64,000 bases of DNA from a virus: the IMG/VR virus record IMGVR_UViG_3300031963_000006, positions 62,001-126,000 of that record; one strand, given 5' to 3'. A program made the position numbers and the translations under genes. The notes under the pieces were generated by a model that was given only the letters and a program-made list of their open reading frames with translations, was not told the origin of the DNA and did no database searches. Position 1 is the stretch's first letter. The number at the start of each line of letters is the position of its first letter. Below, in pieces: positions 30,217 through 33,657 of the stretch.

Positions 30217-30705
30217 ATGGCTGATTTATTAATGAAAATGCCCATACCTTATGAACCCAAAAGGAATAACCGATTTATTTTACGTTTTCCTTCTACATTA
30301 GGTATAAACGAGTGGTTCGTTGAATCTGCCGCTCGACCTCATATTACGATTGTTAGTACTGAGATTCCATTCTTAAATACCTCAACTTATGTTGCTGGTC
30401 GTTTTACGTGGGGAGAAATAAGTGTGGTATTTAGAGACCCAATTGGACCTTCGGCTTCACAGGCACTTATGGAATGGGTTCGTTTATGTGCGGAATCTGT
30501 TACAGGTCGTATGGGTTATGCTGCGGGTTATAAAAAGAATGTTGACCTTGAAATGTTGGACCCTACAGGTGTTGTAGTAGAAAAATGGATTTTAGAAGGA
30601 ACATTCTTAAACGATGTTAACTTTAATTCTTTAAGTTATTCTGATGATAAGTTAGCAACAGTTACGGCTAAAATGAGAATGGACCGTTGTATCTTGGTTT
30701 ACTAA
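30217..30705 (+). CDS. 19: Tail tube protein (gp19)
   Basis: At 162 residues it is almost the same length as T4 gp19 (163). It opens with MPIPYEPKRNNRFILRFPST, the usual tube start in which 'P-R-N-RF-+-F-' begins the first strand. It continues with the conserved GRFTWGEISVVFRDPIGPSA and ends with ATVTAKMRMDRCILVY. Hexameric rings of this protein form the inner tube through which DNA passes. It is a single gene with its own promoter motif and a strong terminator, as expected for a very abundant product. Confidence 0.95.
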   Translation: MADLLMKMPIPYEPKRNNRFILRFPSTLGINEWFVESAARPHITIVSTEIPFLNTSTYVAGRFTWGEISVVFRDPIGPSASQALMEWVRLCAESVTGRMGYAAGYKKNVDLEMLDPTGVVVEKWILEGTFLNDVNFNSLSYSDDKLATVTAKMRMDRCILVY

Positions 30706-30730: not shown

Positions 30731-30760
30731 ATCCCATATTATTAATATGGGATTTTTTTT
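30731..30760 (+). terminator. Intrinsic terminator after the tube gene
   Basis: A perfect 10-bp stem (ATCCCATATT / AATATGGGAT, loop ATT) runs into a T tract of at least nine. It is among the clearest terminators in the window. Confidence 0.9.
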
Positions 30761-30764
30761 TATT

Positions 30765-30896
30765 ATGGAAAACAATACAGGATTTACATGTAATACTTGT
30801 GGTAAAGTCTTCGAAACCGAGGAAGAGTTTTTGAATAGACATAATAATAAGAAAAAACCCGAAGAAAATCAACAAAAAGACAATTTAAAGGAATAG
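30765..30896 (+). CDS. Small zinc-finger-like protein (43 aa)
   Basis: A 43-residue frame begins 5 bases after the terminator and ends 4 bases before the gp26-family gene. Its first half resembles a C2H2 finger: FTCNTCGKVFETEEEFLNRH, with C9, C12 and H26. The second His is replaced by an Asn/Lys run, so the finger is incomplete or uses another ligand. The tail is Lys/Glu/Gln-rich. The role is unknown. It may simply be read through from the tube message or expressed with the next gene. Confidence 0.6.
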   Translation: MENNTGFTCNTCGKVFETEEEFLNRHNNKKKPEENQQKDNLKE

Positions 30897-30900
30897 TATT

Positions 30901-31656
30901 ATGGATGAATCATTAATAAAGGCTGCGACTGAAAATTTTAATTTACCACATGACGTGGTGGTTCTACCAACTGGTGGAGTGTTTTACAAATCAAAAAAGA
31001 AAAGTATTAAAGTTGGTTATTTAACGGCTAACGATGAGAACTATCTAATGTCAGGATTGGGTACTAGGGACAATATAGTTATGACATTGTTAAGGAACAA
31101 AATTTACGAGCACGACTTAAGACCTGAGGAACTCTTAGAAGAAGATATTCAGGCAATACTTTTATTCTTGAGAAATACCTCGTTTGGTCCTGAGTATATA
31201 GTCAAATTAGAAGACCCAAAAAGTAAAAAAGAGTTTGAGGAAACACTAATATTGGACGAAATTAACATCAAAAAGGGGAAAATTTTACCAAGTGAAGATG
31301 GTACTTTTACCACGAAATTACCGGTTAGCGGCAGTTCTGTAAAACTAAGACCCTTATCTTTTGGTGAATTGTTTGAAATAGATAAATTATTAGAAAATTA
31401 CCCCAAAGGAAGGGTTGCACCTAGAGTGACTATGAGATTACAAAGACAAATTATGGAAGTTGACGGTAACTCAGATACAAGTCAAATTTCTCTTTTTATA
31501 GATAAATTACCAATAGGTGACTCCAAATACATTAAAAACTTTATAAAAGAAAATATTCCGTCGTTAGATTTAAATAAAACAGTAATTACCCCATCAGGAG
31601 ATAAGATAGATGTTGACATCGTCTTTGGGGTAGAATTTTTTCGGCCTTTCTTCTAA
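30901..31656 (+). CDS. 26: T4 gp26-type baseplate/tail assembly protein
   Basis: This 251-residue protein belongs to the T4 baseplate hub/chaperone family (PF12322-like). The 'LP-GG-FY' entry is at VVVLPTGGVFYKSKKKSIKV, followed by GYLTANDENYLMS and later RPLSFGELFEIDKLLENYP. It lies directly before the tape-measure gene, where tail assembly chaperones usually sit. The end of the frame is odd. It stops at a TAA after GVEFFRPFF, while an open second frame with no start codon of its own continues for 54 codons. A shift at TTT TTT CGG near 31636-31644 would give a 298-residue product. Confidence 0.75.
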   Translation: MDESLIKAATENFNLPHDVVVLPTGGVFYKSKKKSIKVGYLTANDENYLMSGLGTRDNIVMTLLRNKIYEHDLRPEELLEEDIQAILLFLRNTSFGPEYIVKLEDPKSKKEFEETLILDEINIKKGKILPSEDGTFTTKLPVSGSSVKLRPLSFGELFEIDKLLENYPKGRVAPRVTMRLQRQIMEVDGNSDTSQISLFIDKLPIGDSKYIKNFIKENIPSLDLNKTVITPSGDKIDVDIVFGVEFFRPFF

Positions 31657-31798
31657 ACATAAAATTTCTTTAGCGAACGAATACATTATATTATCTAAGA
31701 ATCTTAGTACATCTTACTTTGATTTTACATCAATGCCGACTTATTTCAGAAAATATCTGATAGATAAGGTTATTGAGATGAATACTCCTAAAACCTAA
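31634..31798 (+). other. Likely frameshift extension of the gp26-type gene
   Basis: Frame 2 is open from 31634 to the TAA at 31796-31798 and has no ATG, GTG or TTG start before the internal ATG at 31733. It encodes GLSSKHKISLANEYIILSKN, then SYFDFTSMPTYFRKYLIDKV. This resembles the short C-terminal partners of tail assembly chaperones, with a 'F-x-MP-R-' motif. Slippage from TTT to TTC by one tRNA-Phe, with the rare Arg codon CGG waiting in the A site, would be a +1 shift. A -2 slip on the six-T run gives the same frame. A -1 slip is closed by a stop at 31671. Confidence 0.6.
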
Positions 31799-31805
31799 AA
31801 CAAAG

Positions 31806-31812
31806 TATTTAT
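31806..31812 (+). promoter_or_regulatory. TATTTAT motif before the tape-measure gene
   Basis: AAAGTATTTATTTTAAAAGG lies 15 bases before the ATG at 31828. The AAAGGA that follows is one of the few Shine-Dalgarno-like sequences in the window. Confidence 0.45.
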
Positions 31813-31827
31813 TTTAAAAGGATAATA

Positions 31828-33657
31828 ATGATGTATCAACCAACACCAGGAGGCTCAAATCAGGAGGCAGCGAGTGATTTTTATGATTACGTAAGTAAAT
31901 TGGGTAGTAAAAGTATGGAAGCCTTTTTTGGCAACTTTTACCCAGGATTAAGAAATCTTGTTAACACAGTTCAAGAAATTGACGCTGACGCCACTAAAGT
32001 GGCTAAAACTTTTGGACAAGGTAGAGAAAATATTGCGGGTATTAAAATTGCGTTGGTCGACGCTGCGACTTCAGTTGAGGCTTTGGGAGGTAAATTTGTT
32101 GATGTTGCAAAAATACAAACTGACTTAACTAATAGTTTAGGTAGGTCGGTTATGCTAACATCAGAATCATACGACGACATTTTTGCAACAACACAAGTAA
32201 CTGGACAAGAAGCTGGAAAACTGTTTACTAGTTTTAAAAATATTGGGACATCCGCTTATGGTGTTGCCTCCGGAATGCAAAAAATTGTTGACACCGCTAG
32301 ACAACAAGGTCTTAGTGTTGAGAAGGTTAGTGAGCAGGCGATGAGTAATATGGAATCAATGAACAAGTACAATTTTCAAGGGGGTGTTGACGGATTGGCT
32401 AAAATGGCAGCCCAAGCAACTAGTTTAAGAATTGATATGGCAACTACTCTTAATTTTTCAAATGATTTATATAAGCCCGAAAAGGCGATTGAAATGTCAG
32501 CGGCACTCCAAAGACTTGGGGTTACTCAGTCTGAATTGTTGGACCCACTAAGATTAATGGATTTATCTATTAATGACCCAACAGAACTTCAAAATCAGTT
32601 AGTACAAATGACTCAACAATTTGTAACTATGAATGAAGCCGGACAATTTGAGATTGCTCCTGAGGGAAAACTTAGAATGAGAGAATTAGAACAAGCCACT
32701 GGAATTGCGTATGGAGAGTTAACAAAAATGGCTTTAGGTTCCGCAGAATTAGAAAATAAGTTGTCTAAAATAAGATTTCCTGAGTTTATGACCGAAGAGC
32801 AACAAAAAATGGTTGCAAATTTGTCCGAAATGAAGGATGGTCAATATGTAATATCAATTGATGGTACAGAACAAAACTTACAAGAGTTACTTGCTAGAAC
32901 AGATAGTCAGGAAGAAATTAACAAAATATTAGAGGCTGCCAAACCTAAAACAATGGAAGATTTGGCTAAGGAACAGTTGAACCTCCAACAAAGTATGGAA
33001 GCGAGCTTAGCAAAAATGGCCGGGAGAACCTCAAGAGCGTTGGCGACATCTAAAATAGGTGAGGAAGTTACTGAGGCGATAAAAGAAGGTTATACAAATA
33101 TGACAGATGTTGTAACCGATAGAGATGTTATGTCGGCAAAAAGTATTCGTGAGTTGTTTAACATTGCGGACCCTAAAGAGATGACGAATTTAATGAAAGA
33201 TGTTTTGTCAGGTAAAGATGTTGATGTTGGAGGAAAATTCATGGAAATGGGTGAAGATGCCGGAGGTTTATTAGGTGAACAAATGAAAAGTTTGGCTCAA
33301 AATTTGGCCGAACAAGGAAAAAAATTAGAAGAGTCTGATAATATATTTGCCGGTGTTGTAAATACGTTAGTTGATGAACTTTCTGGATACATAAAAGAAG
33401 TTAGTGGAGTTGACATAAAAGCAAAAATTGCGGAATATCAAGGTAATGAAACACAGTCAACAAAAACTACCCCACAAACCAATACACAAACTATTAACAA
33501 TAATTCAACTGTGGATGTAAATATAAAATTAGATGTTCCACCTGGAATGTCAGTTCAAGAAGTTTCAGACGCATTAAGAACCGAACAAATTAAACAAGAA
33601 ATAGTTAAAATTGTTGAGGAAAAATATCCCGACCTTAAGTTAAAACCAGCACATTAA
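31828..33657 (+). CDS. Tape measure protein (gp29 position)
   Basis: This 609-residue, mostly helical protein is rich in Ala, Gln, Met and Glu, with tape-measure features: GVASGMQKIVDTARQQGLSV, GGVDGLAKMAAQATSLRID and long helical stretches. The C-terminus is Gln/Thr-rich and ends in a small Lys-rich domain. Its length is near T4 gp29 (590), which fits a T4-sized tail. No transmembrane segment or lytic domain is seen. It follows the gp26-type gene and its frameshift candidate. ATG codons at 31828 and 31831 are both possible starts. Confidence 0.7.
   Translation: MMYQPTPGGSNQEAASDFYDYVSKLGSKSMEAFFGNFYPGLRNLVNTVQEIDADATKVAKTFGQGRENIAGIKIALVDAATSVEALGGKFVDVAKIQTDLTNSLGRSVMLTSESYDDIFATTQVTGQEAGKLFTSFKNIGTSAYGVASGMQKIVDTARQQGLSVEKVSEQAMSNMESMNKYNFQGGVDGLAKMAAQATSLRIDMATTLNFSNDLYKPEKAIEMSAALQRLGVTQSELLDPLRLMDLSINDPTELQNQLVQMTQQFVTMNEAGQFEIAPEGKLRMRELEQATGIAYGELTKMALGSAELENKLSKIRFPEFMTEEQQKMVANLSEMKDGQYVISIDGTEQNLQELLARTDSQEEINKILEAAKPKTMEDLAKEQLNLQQSMEASLAKMAGRTSRALATSKIGEEVTEAIKEGYTNMTDVVTDRDVMSAKSIRELFNIADPKEMTNLMKDVLSGKDVDVGGKFMEMGEDAGGLLGEQMKSLAQNLAEQGKKLEESDNIFAGVVNTLVDELSGYIKEVSGVDIKAKIAEYQGNETQSTKTTPQTNTQTINNNSTVDVNIKLDVPPGMSVQEVSDALRTEQIKQEIVKIVEEKYPDLKLKPAH

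Follow-up and report, generated by a model that had tools for sequence, protein, structure and literature searches.

A probable +1 frameshift preceded by a conserved RNA hairpin may extend a T4 gp26-type tail protein in a large bacterial virus

One gene of a large bacterial virus appears to give rise to two versions of a tail-building protein. In the window (the whole 64,000-nt stretch of DNA analyzed here, part of a 215,250-base virus record), a forward-strand gene of the T4 gp26 type (30901–31656) encodes a proposed short chaperone (TAC-N) of 251 aa, and its end overlaps a second open frame on the same strand (31634–31798), proposed to encode the C-terminal part of a long chaperone (TAC-NC). 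A programmed +1 ribosomal frameshift at TTT TTT CGG (31636–31644, also forward strand) probably joins the two, giving a likely 298-residue long form of the tail assembly chaperone beside the 251-residue short one. Comparison with relatives indicates that the second frame, the slip site, and a bulged RNA hairpin directly 5′ of it (31587–31632) are all conserved; the hairpin is new here.

By both sequence and predicted fold, the zero-frame protein is a member of the T4 gp26/gp51 family (PF12322, phrog_150). It matches PF12322 at E 8.7e-8 (32.6 bits, against a curated cut-off of 24.5), the single match to that family across the whole virus record, and phrog_150 at E 1.7e-10. Alignment A4 and the family searches took the fused sequence, read with the +1 step, and 57 of 57 fused relatives match both families at E ≤ 0.01. 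The structure model, by contrast, is of the zero-frame protein alone, without the extension (26 sequences; mean pLDDT 85.2, pTM 0.80). Its matches in BFVD are gp26/gp51-type proteins, among them the SP-15 baseplate hub subunit (E 5.9e-17) and gp26 of Aeromonas phage 25 (E 6.0e-6). A fold search of the PDB with this model gave no matches at E ≤ 0.001, the listed rows being spurious (TM ~0.1 or below), and a profile search of PDB sequences found no TAC among its matches. The missing PDB match lowers the likelihood that the modeled protein has a TAC fold of the kind seen in, for example, HK97 gp13.

A chaperone role for the gp26-type protein is therefore proposed from gene order, the two-product layout, and a published reading of T4-like genes cited in other papers (PMC10885494, PMC12846349), the PDB having given no meaningful match. 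Upstream is a tail tube gene (30217–30705; phrog_4542, E 2.7e-22). The next gene downstream, on the forward strand (31828–33657), encodes 609 aa and is proposed from gene order to be the tape measure; it has no Pfam or PHROG match supporting that name. Between the tail tube and gp26-type genes is a 49-aa ORF (30747–30896) whose match to a C2H2 zinc-finger-like family is weak (E 0.015) and falls below the cut-off. No tRNA genes were found by ARAGORN within the window (1–64000).

The second frame was first pointed out in an earlier note made from the sequence alone, and the observation is confirmed. The gp26-type frame ends in FGVEFFRPFF-stop at 31656, and frame 2 is open from 31634 to 31798 without an ATG, GTG, or TTG before 31733. 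It reads NFFGLSSKHK...FTSMPTYFRKYLIDKVIEMNTPKT and encodes 54 residues, including FTSMPTYFRKYLIDKVIE; a +1 step gives a fusion of 298 residues, the length the note had given. The suggestion that this frame is protein-like is borne out in the window family, for which 80 IMG/VR loci were collected, 78 with the slip site and 41 of these unique. Among the 41, the +1 frame contains no stops, whereas the other two frames average 4.1 and 6.2. Mean pN is 0.279 and mean pS 0.732, compared with pN/pS ratios of 0.99 and 1.30 in the other frames, the ratio being a rough guide because pS is near saturation. By these sequence measures, the +1 frame is under purifying selection in the window family. An overlapping second frame that is conserved as protein and accessible where the first one closes, a mark of TAC-N/TAC-NC pairs, is present here. 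None of 198 listed loci has the two frames fused into one at this site; all have T6, including at least 120 new ones found with a pattern that would accept any run from T5 to T8.

An internal or nonstandard start, coupled to the first gene, could instead allow the second ORF to be translated independently, and the hairpin bulge does contain a Shine-Dalgarno (SD)-like AGGAG. The only start codons in the +1 frame of the window, however, are ATGs at 31733 and 31778 (offsets 97 and 142 from 31636), and a TAG closes the frame directly before the slip site both here and in one relative (L006); another (L070) has no start codon from the upstream stop to the slip site. TTG at −11 is common among relatives, but in the window a stop comes after it, and the start codons of other relatives vary in position. 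None of the window-family relatives has a conserved start for the second ORF, and initiation at such a codon was rejected. In three more distant loci (L086, L170, and L176), the second ORF does begin with an ATG of its own, either overlapping or after the first stop and in a frame other than +1; in these, it is possible that separate initiation replaces the frameshift. For the window, an independent start is very improbable.

The slip site consists of T6 (31636–31641) followed by CGG, and has the form TTT TTT CGN in 41 of 41 unique relatives. Its Arg codon is CGN in all 41, though AGA accounts for 72.5% of Arg codons in the gene family, and the Gly codon of the preceding FGVE is GGG in 39 of 41, vs. 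a 14.8% background. The site, direction, and target frame proposed in the earlier note hold up, and its interpretation as a programmed shift is supported. Its idea of a rare CGG waiting codon can be kept in part. In the nine large ORFs counted, just one of 214 Arg codons is CGG, namely the one at the slip site, which fits a hungry codon in this genome; relatives, however, use any CGN here (CGG in 17 of 41). The note had also raised a −2 slip on the T run, which would lead to the same frame with one extra Phe (299 residues). A ribosomal −2 frameshift is feasible in the window and its family, where T6 is invariant, and is known for phage Mu (PMC5009743), but it would be impossible in relatives without a T run. 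These favor +1 over −2, which is considered quite unlikely.

Such relatives came from wider searches. The Microcystis phage Mel-JY01 protein recovered at least 600 loci, of which 80 were kept and inspected, and a search with a huge phage as query gave 20, of which 18 were inspected. In nearly all of the complete ones, the zero frame closes with FFWP or a comparable motif and is accompanied by a +1 ORF, with slip sites of the forms TTT TTT TGG, TTC TTT TGG, CTT TTT TGG, and TTT TTT TAC. Named phages with the same layout are Mel-JY01, GXN1, LIS04, SP-15, Flavobacterium phage immuto, and RM378; their records (L081, L082, L083, L084, L192, and L193) annotate the short gene only, with no joined long form. 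The GXN1 site (TTC TTT CGT) and that of LR756508 (TTT CTA) lack T6, and fit a +1 step at UUU followed by C or U; one clade with TTC TTT TGG, also without T6, fits +1 as well. So does immuto (TTT CTT TGG), likewise without T6, though a slip at CTT T is also possible there. Window-family extensions are homologous to those of the Microcystis-type family (hhalign, E 6.6e-11). Two observations count against +1: all 41 of 41 window-family members keep the full T6, more than would be required by a +1 step confined to the second UUU, and LIS04 has TTT TTT AGT, where re-pairing from UUU to UUA would be poor.

The predicted hairpin, on the forward strand, consists of an outer stem with arms UACCCCA (31587–31593) and UGGGGUA (31626–31632), a 5′ bulge (31594–31602), and an upper stem and loop (31603–31625). 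The 3′ arm includes the GGG codon mentioned above and ends three bases before the T run. This structure was chosen after viewing the first 41 sequences, when CCCC and GGGG arms with matching changes were noticed in the aligned upstream DNA. A held-out set (A3) of at least 105 new unique sequences was therefore compared; the pattern used to find them fixed GGGG, the slip site, and some of the flanking sequence, leaving the 5′ arm free to vary. All 105 of 105 have CCCC, while the outermost pair is formed in only 59 of 105. In alignment A2 (37 unique sequences), 95.8% of outer-stem cells are paired. Covariation scores were 0.268 for the outer stem in A2 (0.153 shuffled) and 0.408 for the upper stem in A3 (0.214 shuffled), reached in neither case by any of 500 shuffles, counts that are not probabilities because related sequences are not independent. 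The 5′ bulge retains the SD-like AGGAG, of putative function, whose GGA is invariant in A3 though GGT is the commonest Gly codon.

Folding of the 51 nt before the slip site was compared with that of versions in which synonymous codons were redrawn, preserving the protein. The mean z was −2.25 for 34 sequences, vs. −0.28 to 0.20 for twelve control windows in the same gene, and −2.50 for the 105 held-out sequences; the window sequence alone is less striking (z −1.94 vs. dinucleotide shuffles). Downstream of the site, any stimulatory structure is weak (mean z −0.35 to −0.76). A covariance model of the hairpin found the site in the window at E 1.8e-24, with the next match at E 0.062, and there is no match in Rfam. 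The hairpin was found only in uncultured relatives. In 33 distant loci the best E was only 0.016, and the Microcystis-type family has no clear counterpart (mean z −0.86; control windows −0.67 to 0.27).

In the favored ribosomal reading, most ribosomes would end at 31656 and release the 251-residue short chaperone. A fraction would slip one base forward when the tRNA-Phe on the UUU before CGN re-pairs with UUC or UUU, and would read on to 31798 to complete the long form. When the second UUU occupies the P site, the upstream hairpin could refold in the mRNA exit channel and promote the forward step. The C-terminal part of the long form might then be in contact with tail proteins as the tail is assembled around the tape measure.

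The same geometry would also suit an event in transcription, and this is a further point against a ribosomal shift. If RNA polymerase dropped one U in T6, stimulated by the hairpin, an mRNA with joined frames would give the same 298-residue protein. The last U of U6 lies 9 nt from the base of the hairpin, a spacing near that of an intrinsic terminator; T6 is invariant in the window family; and there is a precedent in a Roseiflexus insertion sequence (IS), where one base is lost at T5C5 in a stem-loop dependent manner (PMC5009743). For the window family itself, transcriptional slippage and a ribosomal +1 shift alike appear to fit the sequence. Slippage would not, however, call for conservation of CGN, though CGN could be kept for the Phe encoded in the +1 frame, and the second frame is retained in relatives whose site reads T3, T2CT4, or T3CT3. 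Since sites without a T run occur in relatives, a ribosomal +1 shift is more economical for the group as a whole, and transcriptional slippage is considered unlikely. The more general proposal is that, in a T4-type chaperone gene, a bulged hairpin sitting in the mRNA or RNA exit channel causes the frame to advance by one base, by stimulating either a ribosomal +1 step or transcriptional slippage; it could equally turn out right or wrong.

T4 has two separate genes, gp26 and gp51, where the window has one. Both match phrog_150, as the window protein does, gp51 over positions 13–280 and gp26 over 14–235 of 282, and a comparison of just these two sequences shows weak similarity (E 3e-6). That gp26 ends at 235 while gp51 reaches 280, together with this similarity, suggests that in T4 the short and the long form are each encoded by a gene of their own; PRFect (PMC10885494) describes some T4-like phages as having a short copy and a long one. 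The extension in the window was compared with the gp51 C-terminus in five hhalign comparisons with gp51 profiles, two using extensions and three using fused proteins. None was significant, which is a point against the proposal; the best is collinear (E 0.0045, probability 7.7%, not significant). As T4-type relatives carry the frameshift layout, an origin of the T4 two-gene arrangement from a frameshift becomes testable. The cultured phages immuto, SP-15, Mel-JY01, and RM378, which have the layout, are candidates for study.

Tail chaperone frameshifts are a classic case of programmed shifting, with −1, −2, and +1 examples on record, and T4 has been listed as the exception among long-tailed phages (PMC5009743). 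The title of Vladimirov, Gautam and Davidson (2022; Virology 566:9–15) and papers citing it (PMC10885494, PMC12846349) indicate that it deals with T4-like chaperones and a mechanism other than frameshifting, while one of these (PMC12846349) credits it with poly-T signals in T4-like TAC-N genes. A frameshift in part of this group may therefore already have been described there, and its novelty is uncertain. In the literature searched, no 5′ hairpin at such a site was found, nor any description of a 5′-hairpin-driven ribosomal +1 shift or transcriptional slippage in a phage tail gene. The conserved 5′ hairpin offers a case in which ribosomal and transcriptional mechanisms would yield the same protein yet are distinguishable.

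Among known systems, the layout resembles lambda gpG/gpGT, with short and long chaperones encoded before the tape measure gene and a frameshift placed shortly before the short ORF terminates (PMC5009743); lambda, however, shifts −1, whereas the window would shift +1 with a hairpin 5′ of the site, and no relation between the gp26-type protein and gpG was detected. The Vandenendeviridae TAC (phage Adele) likewise has a conserved poly-T slip site ending TAC-N before the tape measure, but is described as −1 with GTTTTT (PMC12846349). RF2 (prfB) shares a +1 slip with a 5′ stimulator, there CUU UGA with an SD sequence 3 nt away (PMC5009743) rather than UUU CGN with a hairpin. Two further precedents may apply here by analogy (PMC5009743). 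In T4 gene 60, a 5′ stem-loop is proposed to exert a pull on the mRNA where it leaves through the exit channel, although the outcome is the bypass of a coding gap and not a one-base shift. In the Roseiflexus IS, a stem-loop is located directly 5′ of a T-rich slip motif at which one base is lost; its stem adjoins T5C5 without a spacer, whereas in the window 3 nt separate the stem from T6C.
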